64,000 nt of DNA from Puniceicoccaceae bacterium (GTDB taxonomy: Bacteria > Verrucomicrobiota > Verrucomicrobiia > Opitutales > JAFGAQ01), in assembly GCA_028285755.1 (NCBI GenBank), contig JANQOQ010000006.1:496001-560000 (forward strand), written 5' to 3'. This document shows, one piece after another, positions 22,340-57,799 of the stretch. Every line of letters starts with the position of its first letter. Position 1 is the first letter of the stretch. The notes under the pieces are model-generated. The model saw only the letters and a list, made by a program, of their open reading frames with translations. It had not been told where the DNA came from and did not search any database. A program made the translations under genes and the position numbers.

Positions 22340-24922
<2,583 letters not shown>

Positions 24923-24952
24923 CGCCCCCCTACCCCTAAACCTATATAAACT

Positions 24953-27370
<2,418 letters not shown>

Positions 27371-27375
27371 ACGAT

Positions 27376-27399
27376 TGGGTTATTAATGTTGATAACCCA
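27376..27399 (+). terminator. hairpin after gyrA, possible weak terminator
   Basis: TGGGTTAT (27376-27383) pairs perfectly with ATAACCCA (27392-27399) around an 8-nt loop, 5 bp after the gyrA stop. Only a short broken T-run follows (TTGATTTTC), and the priA ATG is 9 bp further on. It may partly separate priA from the gyrBA transcript or affect priA translation. Confidence 0.4.
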
Positions 27400-27408
27400 T
27401 TGATTTTC

Positions 27409-29643
27409 ATGCAGATAGTTGAAGTCAGGGTTTTCTCGAACGTAGACAAAACCCTGCACTATCGGGTGCCCCCAGATCTGCAAATTCCGGCTGTTGGCTC
27501 GTTGGTTAAAGTGCCTTTGATGAACCGCTGGGATACCGGTATTGTTCTATCCCATACGGATCAAGTTGATTTTGACCCGGCGAAGCTAAAGAACATCCAT
27601 TCAGCGATATTTCCAGAACCGGTCATTACCCGGGACCTGCTCAAGATGGTGGATTGGATCGCCAACTACTACGGGCATTCTGCTGCGCAGATACTGGACG
27701 CGATGCTGCCCCCTACCCTGCGCAATCCGCCCAAAGCCAAAAAAATCGCTATGCTACAGCTCACCGATGCCGGGAAATCGCTGGATATCGACTCTCTCCC
27801 CAAATCCGCCAAAAAGCAAAAAGCCTTGCTCATCGCACTGAGAAATACGGCTAAATCCGTTCCCAAACTGGACTTCCTCAAAGGACAAAATATATCCACC
27901 GCAATCGCCAAATCACTCATCGAAAAAGCCTACCTCCAGGAAACTTTTATCGATTCCGAACGCCTGGGATATACGGATGAACTCGCTACAATGGACGCCC
28001 TCAAACCCAAAGCCTTTGAACTCTCTGAGGAGCAAAGAGAAGCCGTAGATTCAATTGTGCAAGCCGTTCGTATGCAGCAATTTAAACCCACCCTACTTCA
28101 TGGGGTAACGGGCTCTGGAAAGACAGAAGTTTATGTGCGTGCCATACAGGAAATCTTGAAAAATCCGACCGCCTCAGCACTGTTTTTGGTACCCGAGGTT
28201 GCACTTGCACCTCAAACCGTAGGAACATTACGAAATCGCCTCGAATCCGAAGGCTCCAAAGTCGTCGTGTGGCACAGTCATTTATCGGAAGGAGAGCGTC
28301 GGGATAGCTGGCTTAAAATCGCCCGGGGGGAAACACGCATCGTCGTGGGTGCACGCTCAGCTGTTTTCACCCCGATCCAAAATTTGAAGCTAGTCGTTGT
28401 CGATGAAGAGCACGAGCCCGCTTACAAACAGGATGAAAATCCACGTTATCACGGTCGGGATATCGCTGTATATCGGGCCAAGCTTAATAATTGCTGCTGT
28501 ATACTGGGCTCCGCAACCCCTTCACTCGAGTCGCTCTACAATGTGAAAGCCCGAAAATACGAGGTAATCCGCCTGACTAAGCGGGTCGATGACCGCGAAC
28601 TGCCCAAAATTCACATCGTGGACATGCGACTCGAATTCCGCAAAAACAAAAAAGAGGAGATACTATCCCAGAAACTCAAAGATGAGCTCCAAAACCGTCT
28701 CGAACGCCAGGAACAGTCCATCCTTTTCCTCAATCGCCGTGGATTTACTAAAAACTTGATCTGCCGGGAATGTGGCTGGGTAGCCATGTCGCCGGAGTGC
28801 AGCATCCCCCTCACCTATCATCAGTTTGACCACCGCTTACGCTGCCATATTTCCGGCTATGAAGCACCTGCTCCCAGGCAATGCCCTGAGTGCAAATCGA
28901 AGAATATCCATGGGGAAGGCTTTGGCACACAAAAGGTGGAAACGGTCGTCAAAGCACTCCTACCCAAAGCCCGTGTCATGCGCATCGATACGGATACCAT
29001 GTCCAAAAAGAACCGACTGCGTGAAATCCTCGCTGATTTCCGGAAAGGGAAAATCGACATCCTTGTAGGCACCCAAATGATCGCCAAAGGCCTGGATTTC
29101 CCAAATGTCACACTAGTATCCCTCGTCAATGCCGATCAATCTCTGTACATGGAGGACTTTCGCGCTGCCGAACGTACTTTCCAGCTGCTTGTGCAAGTCT
29201 CCGGGCGTGCAGGGCGCGGAGATCGGGCCGGTGAGGTCATCATCCAAACCTCAACACCCCATGCGGCCCCCATCCAGTTCGCCCGGCACTCCGACTTTGA
29301 CGGCTTCCTTGAAGACGAAATCGAACTCCGCCGCGAATTCAACTACCCCCCTTTCCGCCATTTAATCCGCCACCTCATACGCGGACCCAATGAAGATAAA
29401 GTACGTTATTTCGCGGAAAATTGGCGTAAGTCATTAGATGAGAAAAACTTGGACTACCTGGATATTCGAGGGCCCATCCCCGCTCCCATTGAAAAAATCA
29501 ACTCAGAATACCGCTACCAGATCTGGTATTTTACCAATCAGATTATAAAAACAATCGAGCAGTTAAATACTCTCAGAGCCGATTTTCTCTGGGAAAAATC
29601 AATCACCCAAGTCCTGGATGTCGATGCAATCAATCTACGCTGA
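27409..29643 (+). CDS. priA: primosomal protein N' (replication-restart helicase PriA) with an altered zinc site
   Basis: The protein has 744 residues from the ATG at 27409; a TTG at 27400 is a possible alternative. It has an N-terminal DNA-binding domain (1-100), a superfamily 2 helicase core with Walker A GVTGSGKTEVY (about 233-243) and DEEHEPAYKQDENPRYHGRD (about 336-355), then a zinc region (about 450-500), and motifs GTQMIAKGLDFP and QVSGRAGRGDR. PriA reloads DnaB at stalled forks. The zinc region reads CRECGW, SPECSIP, RCHIS, CPEC. Compared with E. coli, the positions of C445 and C466 are serines, so one of two zinc sites keeps only two cysteines. The rest appears intact. Confidence 0.93.
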   Translation: MQIVEVRVFSNVDKTLHYRVPPDLQIPAVGSLVKVPLMNRWDTGIVLSHTDQVDFDPAKLKNIHSAIFPEPVITRDLLKMVDWIANYYGHSAAQILDAMLPPTLRNPPKAKKIAMLQLTDAGKSLDIDSLPKSAKKQKALLIALRNTAKSVPKLDFLKGQNISTAIAKSLIEKAYLQETFIDSERLGYTDELATMDALKPKAFELSEEQREAVDSIVQAVRMQQFKPTLLHGVTGSGKTEVYVRAIQEILKNPTASALFLVPEVALAPQTVGTLRNRLESEGSKVVVWHSHLSEGERRDSWLKIARGETRIVVGARSAVFTPIQNLKLVVVDEEHEPAYKQDENPRYHGRDIAVYRAKLNNCCCILGSATPSLESLYNVKARKYEVIRLTKRVDDRELPKIHIVDMRLEFRKNKKEEILSQKLKDELQNRLERQEQSILFLNRRGFTKNLICRECGWVAMSPECSIPLTYHQFDHRLRCHISGYEAPAPRQCPECKSKNIHGEGFGTQKVETVVKALLPKARVMRIDTDTMSKKNRLREILADFRKGKIDILVGTQMIAKGLDFPNVTLVSLVNADQSLYMEDFRAAERTFQLLVQVSGRAGRGDRAGEVIIQTSTPHAAPIQFARHSDFDGFLEDEIELRREFNYPPFRHLIRHLIRGPNEDKVRYFAENWRKSLDEKNLDYLDIRGPIPAPIEKINSEYRYQIWYFTNQIIKTIEQLNTLRADFLWEKSITQVLDVDAINLR

Positions 29644-55738: not shown

Positions 55739-57799
55739 TTGACTGATAAAAAAAGCAAAAAGCTGGAAACCATCCGCGTTGGCTTGATAGGCGCAGGCAA
55801 TATCTCCCAATTTCACCTTCAGGCACTCGGGCGAATCAAGGAAGTAAGTGTTGAGATCATTGTAGACCTTGATGAAACCATGGCTGAGAACCGGGCGGCT
55901 GAGTATGATATTCCTGCATTTAGTTCCAACATTTCAGATCTTTACACGCATAAGCTTGATGTCGTCCATATCGCAACACCGCCTTCAACGCATGCTACCC
56001 TAGCCTGTGAAGCACTCAACAAAGGGTGCCATGTGATAGTGGAAAAACCTATGGCGACTACACAGGAAGATTGTCACCGCATGATCGACACAGCTAAAGC
56101 TGCAAATCGGCATTTGACGGTGAATCATTCATTACTTTTTGACCCATTTATCCGAAAAGCACTTAATTGGGTGGATGCGGGTAAAATTGGTGAGGTAATC
56201 GCTGTGGATTACTTTAGATCTTCAGACTACCCACCTTTTCCTGCGGGAAAACTCCCTCCCCAGTATCAGGAAGGAGGATATCCATTTAGAGATATTGGCA
56301 TCCATGGCCTGTATTTGATAGAGGCATTGTTGGGAAACATCCTGGATGCAAAATTGCAACATTGGAGACGAGGCGGAGACCCCTATCTATTCGCAGATGA
56401 ATGGCGTACGCAAATTGAATGCGAACGAGGCACCGGTCAAATGTGGTTATCCTGGAACAACCGTCCACTCGAAAACCGCCTTTACGTTCGAGGCAGCCTA
56501 GGGGTCATTGAAGTGGACTTGTTTTCAATGTATGTAACTTGCAAAAGGAAATTACCCGGACCCCAAATCGCCAGTCGTATCCTTAACCCGATTTTTGCAT
56601 CCCAATCCACATTCAATCAAGTCGCATGGAATGTCACAAAGGTTTTCCGGAAGAAGCTACGCCGCTTTCATGGAGTGCAATCTTTTGTAGAGGATTTTTA
56701 TGAGCAGTTAAAACAAGAGAACCCACCCACAGTAAATGCCGAAGATGCGATGCGGGTAACTGACTGGAATGAACGGCTTGCAGCGCCTGTTGATCACGCA
56801 AAACGTGATGCGCTCAAGTCTTTGAAATACACTATTGGGACGGAAACACTGGTAACCGGAGGAAATGGATTTATAGGTTCACAACTCGTTAAAAAACTCA
56901 TAAACCAAGGTGAAAAAGTAAGACTGCTGGTGCGCCGTACCCCGAAGGTTATAAACTTTGAAAATATTGAATATCATGTTGGGGATCTGGGAGATACAGA
57001 ATTCGTAAACAAGGCGATGGTGGGCATTAAGACGGTGTATCACCTGGGTGCCGGGATGAAGGGAGCCGCCGAAGACTTTAAACGCAGTACGATTGCCGGT
57101 ACTCAAAACGTAGTGGATGCAGCGATTAAAGAATCTGTAGAGAATTTCATATATATAAGCTCGATGAGTGTCATCCACGCTTTGGATAAAAGTAAAAAGC
57201 CGATTGACGAGGAGTCAGCGCTGGAAACACATCCAGAAAAAAGGGGGGCATACACCCAAACTAAACTCGAAGCAGAAACCCTCATCCAAAAGGCAATTAC
57301 AGAACGGCATTTACCTGCAAAAATTATTCGTCCCGGGCAAGTATTTGGAGAGGGAGTTCCGTTGATAAATGGGGCGGTTGGCAGAAAAACAGGCAATCAT
57401 TATGTGGTTTTTGGAAATGGTAAGGTAATACTCCCGCTCATATATGTAGAAGACCTCGTAGAAAGTATTTTGCTCGTCGCAACCCGGGGCAGTAACGGTC
57501 AATTATACCACGCCATTGATACTGCTCATAAAGTGGATCAAAACACCCTGCTCAAACTGTATCATAAAGATAGCGGTAAAACGTCCATTAAGCACATCCC
57601 ACTAATATTTATTGATTTACTGGGATTTGGTGCTGAATTGCTATTTCGCATACTCGGCAAACGGGTACCCATTCGGTATCGTATTCGATCAGCATCATCG
57701 AGCCTGCATGGCCCCTGCAAACCCCTGGAAAATCTGGGCTGGAAGGCGCGGGTTGGCGTCCTGGAAGGTATCCGGCGTGTGATTGAGGCAGAGTCATGA
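55739..57799 (+). CDS. fusion of Gfo/Idh/MocA oxidoreductase and SDR-type sugar epimerase/dehydratase
   Basis: This 686-residue chain starts at TTG 55739. Residues 11-350 form a Gfo/Idh/MocA domain: VGLIGAGNISQFHL (14-27, NAD loop), VEKPMATT (101-108, conserved EKP) and GIHGLYLIEAL (187-197). Residues 367-686 form an extended SDR: TLVTGGNGFIGSQL (370-383) and the active-site YTQTK (505-509) with a preceding serine in ISSMSV. The two halves could act in successive steps on a nucleotide sugar or linked sugar. A short linker joins them with no sign of frameshift. It overlaps the next gene by 4 bp. Confidence 0.85.
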   Translation: MTDKKSKKLETIRVGLIGAGNISQFHLQALGRIKEVSVEIIVDLDETMAENRAAEYDIPAFSSNISDLYTHKLDVVHIATPPSTHATLACEALNKGCHVIVEKPMATTQEDCHRMIDTAKAANRHLTVNHSLLFDPFIRKALNWVDAGKIGEVIAVDYFRSSDYPPFPAGKLPPQYQEGGYPFRDIGIHGLYLIEALLGNILDAKLQHWRRGGDPYLFADEWRTQIECERGTGQMWLSWNNRPLENRLYVRGSLGVIEVDLFSMYVTCKRKLPGPQIASRILNPIFASQSTFNQVAWNVTKVFRKKLRRFHGVQSFVEDFYEQLKQENPPTVNAEDAMRVTDWNERLAAPVDHAKRDALKSLKYTIGTETLVTGGNGFIGSQLVKKLINQGEKVRLLVRRTPKVINFENIEYHVGDLGDTEFVNKAMVGIKTVYHLGAGMKGAAEDFKRSTIAGTQNVVDAAIKESVENFIYISSMSVIHALDKSKKPIDEESALETHPEKRGAYTQTKLEAETLIQKAITERHLPAKIIRPGQVFGEGVPLINGAVGRKTGNHYVVFGNGKVILPLIYVEDLVESILLVATRGSNGQLYHAIDTAHKVDQNTLLKLYHKDSGKTSIKHIPLIFIDLLGFGAELLFRILGKRVPIRYRIRSASSSLHGPCKPLENLGWKARVGVLEGIRRVIEAES

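Follow-up and report, generated by a model that had tools for sequence, protein, structure and literature searches.

Loss of cysteines from the second zinc site of the restart protein PriA in two families of Opitutales

The PriA protein encoded in a 64,000-nucleotide stretch of DNA from a Puniceicoccaceae bacterium (the whole stretch analysed here, which we call the window) has serines in place of two of the four cysteines that make up the second zinc site of E. coli PriA. The loss of site-2 cysteines is a clade trait: it is found in all six readable genes of two Opitutales families, f1, to which the window belongs, and f3, and was not seen in any other readable PriA that we examined in the order or the phylum. 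The sequences give good support to the view, already put forward in the first-pass annotation of this DNA, that ordinary zinc binding at site 2 has been lost, since two ligands (f1) or three (f3) are gone and none has been gained. The metal at site 2 appears to be dispensable in both families, because the motor and the other zinc site look intact.

The window encodes a PriA protein with intact helicase motifs

The priA gene (primosomal protein N') lies at 27409..29643 on the + strand and encodes 744 amino acids from an in-frame ATG at 27409; the open reading frame at 27400-29643 (+ strand, 747 amino acids) offers a TTG at 27400 as an alternative start. The protein scores 624.2 bits against the curated PriA model TIGR00595 (cut-off 230.35), and it contains the PriA 3' DNA-binding domain (PriA_3primeBD, 77.5 bits, cut-off 22.7), PriA_C (54.8 bits, cut-off 26.9) and Zn_ribbon_PriA (32.3 bits, cut-off 26); its scores against the narrower NCBI subfamily models PRK05580.x remain below their cut-offs. 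In an alignment with E. coli K-12 PriA the two proteins are 37% identical across almost the full length. By these general family tests the protein is, judged from its sequence, a PriA, although one that lacks the eight-cysteine feature. The gene is present as a single copy in the window genome.

None of the superfamily 2 helicase motifs I-VI is disrupted in any of the six f1 and f3 genes. In the window, motif I (Walker A, LHGVTGSGKTEVY) is found intact at 28096..28134 (+ strand), and both GSGKT and DEEH are unaltered, so the protein does not show the altered Walker A and B motifs of the Deinococcus-Thermus type. The gyrB, gyrA and priA genes are consecutive on one strand at 22412-29643 of the window; in one relative (G002), gyrA and priA are on separate contigs. 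Elsewhere in the window, a 686-amino acid open reading frame in a polysaccharide gene cluster (55739-57799) encodes a GFO/IDH/MocA oxidoreductase fused to an NAD-dependent epimerase.

Two cysteines of one zinc site are replaced by serine

The zinc-binding cysteines of E. coli PriA are divided between two sites, which we take from published structures to be site 1 (C436, C439, C476 and C479) and site 2 (C445, C448, C463 and C466). The cysteine-rich region of the window PriA reads CRECGWVAMSPECSIPLTYHQFDHRLRCHISGYEAPAPRQCPEC; residues of the window protein are given below in P0001 numbering, with E. coli K-12 PriA as the reference. Site 1 is complete, with both of its knuckles intact: C451-x-x-C454 (E. 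coli C436 and C439; 28762..28773, + strand) and C491-x-x-C494 (E. coli C476 and C479; 28882..28893, + strand). Site 2 retains two of its four cysteines, C463 (E. coli C448; 28798..28800, + strand), which is kept in f1 and is serine in f3, and C478 (E. coli C463; 28843..28845, + strand), which is kept in both families. The alignment places S460 (codon TCG, 28789..28791, + strand) at E. coli C445 and S481 (codon TCC, 28852..28854, + strand) at E. coli C466. Thus, both the paired serines and the four remaining cysteines of the other site are as the first-pass annotation had described them for 28741-28920.

The fact that both losses fall in one site has little meaning in the window gene alone, as two cysteines lost from eight would share a four-cysteine site with a chance of 12/28 (0.43), and it is the relatives that carry the weight. 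The chance that the two losses in f1 and the three in f3 would all hit site 2 is approximately (6/28)x(4/56), or 0.015; the pattern goes beyond chance because it is conserved across f1 and recurs in f3.

Site-2 loss marks two Opitutales families

Nearly all of 52 related genomes yielded a complete or partial PriA. We read 131 loci, 130 of which have a readable region, and all four site-2 cysteines are present in 122 of these 130 (duplicates included). The eight deficient loci correspond to six genes, with the window gene occurring as two loci. Four of the six are the readable genes of the window's own family (the window, G001, G002 and G004; G001 is also JAQVLM010000010.1, Opitutales bacterium isolate STF1_11), and in the fifth f1 genome (G003, 77% complete) PriA was not found. 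The other two are from the two genomes of the second family, f3 (G006 and G031). At the places of C445, C448, C463 and C466, in that order, the f1 genes have Ser, Cys, Cys and Ser, except that G001 has Thr at the last, and the f3 genes have Ser, Ser, Cys and Ser, with three of the four cysteines lost. The substitute is therefore Ser at all places save the one Thr. The f1 members differ from one another at ∼38% of the protein, yet have this loss pattern in common.

Scores against PF18319 overlap near 1e-8 between genomes with an intact region and f1 genomes, and this model does not separate genomes that have lost the site from those that retain it; we therefore used DNA patterns and direct reading, in a survey that covered the order and the phylum. 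The full eight-cysteine DNA pattern is present in 331 of the 372 genomes of the order, although one of these matches (G172) is, from its letters, suggestive of a low-complexity chance match, and the PriA of that genome is a fragment. Among the 41 genomes without the pattern, six are those of f1 and f3 and one (G133) has eight cysteines with altered spacing. The remaining 34 have no complete readable PriA region: the PF18319 match is absent or weak, or, for part of them, the protein search returned fragments or nothing, and in one (G122) the PF18319 match is at a contig edge. In a directed check of 65 genomes, the pattern was found in 61, and the four misses were f1 and f3 controls. For the phylum, the pattern required a complete site 1, both histidines and a codon with a second base other than G at the C466 place; it matched 12 of 387 genomes, and only the matches in G000, G002 and G006 are PriA, while the other nine have no tblastn match to PriA. 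This pattern is blind to AGY, CGN and GGN codons at the C466 place, so it would miss G031, which has AGT there, if that genome were drawn.

A different departure is seen in f28, a family of Opitutales with reduced genomes of 0.8-1.0 Mb (L143/G152, L145/G133 and L148/G036). Their PriA proteins are without the GKT of Walker A and have an altered DEEH, but retain all eight zinc cysteines, the mirror image of f1 and f3; they are candidate pseudohelicases outside Deinococcus-Thermus.

One loss or two

In a tree based on PriA only, from which the zinc columns had been removed and which included 36 of 49 rows after the exclusion of 13 that were long or partial, f1 and f3 each form one group on an unsettled backbone, and a single origin of the loss is not rejected (AU p 0.26). 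We sought GyrA in 30 genomes and left out the four in which none was found at threshold (G001, which is an f1 genome, G012, G015 and G017). In the resulting PriA plus GyrA tree (26 genomes, 1505 columns), f1 clusters, with support, with f2, f10, f11 and f18, f3 is placed beside f22, and a single origin is rejected (AU p 0.034), such that two changes are needed. When the similarity of the cysteine-rich region is scaled to that of the remaining protein, the value between f1 and f3 is 1.04, slightly above those to intact relatives (0.92 and 0.83); this likeness fits convergence of the surroundings of the site, but may also reflect exchange or a shared ancestor. We consider that f1 and f3 likely lost site 2 separately, although this is not proven.

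The cysteine-rich region is otherwise conserved

To test for decay, we divided the identity of the region to 36 intact relatives by the corresponding identity of the remaining protein. The ratio is 0.81-0.97 in the six f1 and f3 genes and 0.849 +/- 0.065 among the 36 intact rows; there is therefore no sign of decay. Apart from the lost cysteines, the region shows normal conservation, and its decay is not supported.

The window protein and an intact relative (L053) were modelled with AlphaFold from the same 30 sequences; the two models have matching strands in the region, with confidence at residues 451-500 of 77-89 for the window protein and 71-84 for L053, and the best solved-structure match of both is the PriA structure 8fak. 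Modelling of this domain, which the first-pass annotation had proposed as a check, thus predicts a fold like that of a zinc-bearing relative; these models are metal-free and prone to fold the region anyway, and the stability of the apo site is beyond their reach.

A probable working PriA with a zinc-free second knuckle

On balance we think it probable, from the sequences and models, that the f1 and f3 proteins are working and otherwise ordinary PriAs in which the second zinc knuckle is free of zinc and its fold is kept. At the hairpin base, hydrogen bonds and packing would stand in for the metal, while site 1 would still anchor the domain. PriA would still help to reload the replicative helicase, presumably with DciA in this lineage, and unwinding would be unchanged or modestly retuned. 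The part of this explanation that invokes two losses is weakened because the PriA-only tree permits a single origin and because f1 and f3 are alike in the region. The idea of a knuckle that works without zinc is weakened by two reports on E. coli PriA. The Cys-to-Gly mutants of Zavitz and Marians (1993) were reportedly, going by the title, helicase-deficient with ATPase kept. In vitro, according to PMC7290993, the primosome is not assembled without the zinc fingers.

The position of site 2 makes an effect of its loss on DNA handling plausible, because in the model the two halves of the site bracket a predicted hairpin (strands 468-470 and 475-477; 28813..28842, + strand) and a hairpin of this kind in the cysteine-rich region of E. 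coli PriA is reported to be essential for unwinding (PMC10175261). The same paper describes a swing of this region that forms a pore for lagging-strand ssDNA (PMC10175261). It names D438, S481, T482 and H483 as the residues that contact PriB (PMC10175261), and these adjoin the site-1 cysteines C436, C439 and C479, all of which have counterparts here. With site 1 complete and site 2 not, any effect is therefore expected on the hairpin rather than on a PriB-like docking surface. PriB itself is not widely conserved outside the gamma-Proteobacteria, as stated in a review (PMC13220808). PriC was found in none of 35 related genomes and DnaT in none of 11, and DciA was found in all 11; the DnaT and PriC of the enterobacterial PriA-PriB-DnaT pathway are thus not found in these genomes. 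The earlier suggestion that contacts with PriB- or DnaT-like partners may be altered is not supported, given an intact site 1 at the known PriB contact and the PriC and DnaT results.

A rather doubtful alternative is that both Opitutales families independently and convergently dropped site 2, either resetting the hairpin, with the wedge tuned separately while fork recognition and loading were kept, or producing a zinc-sparing PriA; the lineage concerned is one in which DciA is found and DnaT and PriC are not.

We regard as unlikely, on our analysis, the main rival reading, a natural separation of function of the sort reported for E. coli zinc-site mutants, in which a weaker hairpin wedge would leave fork binding and helicase loading in place with poor unwinding. 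The Cys-to-Gly title mentioned above would be in line with it. So would the bracketing of the hairpin by site 2, given the need for the hairpin in E. coli (PMC10175261), the wild-type growth and recombination that PMC3325207 attributes to priA301 (C479Y), and the pseudohelicase PriA of Deinococcus, as described in PMC4504706. However, the motor motifs are all intact and the hairpin is as conserved as it is in relatives, a sign that selection for unwinding probably persists.

It is less likely still that site 2 continues to bind metal, with C463 and C478 joined by Ser, an acid at 461 or 462, H479, H470 or water. The f1 proteins retain C463, C478, H470 and H479, and each of the four f1 rows has an acidic residue at 461 or 462. 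The f3 proteins, however, also lack C463 and have no acid at either place, and H470 and H479, like C478, are invariant in zinc-bearing relatives too, and are therefore not new ligands. In an alignment of 49 PriAs (the six from f1 and f3 and 43 others), no conserved Cys or His column is gained in f1 and f3. The columns that set both families together apart from 90% or more of the 43 others are 460 and 481, where the cysteines are lost, 462, 456 (W) and 186. The possibility raised in the first-pass annotation, that His or Asp substitutes at these places, is thus not borne out: there is no new Cys or His, and the acid seen in f1 is absent from f3. A C463-C478 disulfide is conceivable for f1 but would not serve both families, since f3 keeps a single site-2 cysteine. 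Residue 462 (28795-28797), within the first CxxC of site 2, is His in 31 of the 43 others and Glu, Gln or Asn in all six site-2-deficient genes, a change that may accompany the loss.

Relaxed constraint, in which the site would decay without replacement and without meaning for function, would account for two or three ligands gone with nothing gained. We consider it very improbable, as the replacements are nearly all Ser and do not vary between genera, conservation elsewhere in the region is normal and the f1 members, despite their divergence, have the same pattern. A sequencing or assembly error, which the first-pass annotation had allowed for, has virtually no chance of being the explanation and was rejected, given that relatives bring the same loss to six genomes, that the S460 codon TCG is two base changes from either Cys codon and that the reading frame is open.

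Comparison with known PriA proteins and zinc ribbons

PriA is the restart protein retained by most bacteria, and its actinobacterial members depart strongly in the cysteine-rich region; across PriA as a whole, the loss of zinc may thus be less unusual than it is among the relatives surveyed here. In the literature covered, which included few subscription papers, we found no report of a PriA that naturally lacks one of its zinc sites. Cys-free variants are known for zinc-ribbon ribosomal proteins, in which the fold is kept, but these are usually regulated paralogs beside a zinc-bearing copy, whereas only one priA was found in the window genome.

The PriA of the window resembles those of E. coli and K. 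pneumoniae (8fak, 4nl4) in all of its domains, its motor motifs, its site-1 cysteines and its overall fold, and differs from them in having Ser at two of the four site-2 cysteines and in coming from a group, the Opitutales, in which the partners PriC and DnaT were not found in the genomes searched. It is like the E. coli zinc-site mutants (the Cys-to-Gly set and priA301, C479Y) in being short of ligands while possibly still active in restart, as far as accounts of those mutants go. The substitution in priA301 falls in site 1, while those seen in nature affect site 2 and are fixed in entire families. The PriA of Deinococcus-Thermus likewise departs, at the level of a clade, from a conserved feature of the protein (PMC4504706); there it is the Walker motifs that are altered, and these are intact in the window PriA. 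The f1 and f3 proteins are natural proteins with which to ask what each zinc site of PriA does, and the loss of site 2 poses the question as one of partner docking near site 1 versus the hairpin and unwinding near site 2.
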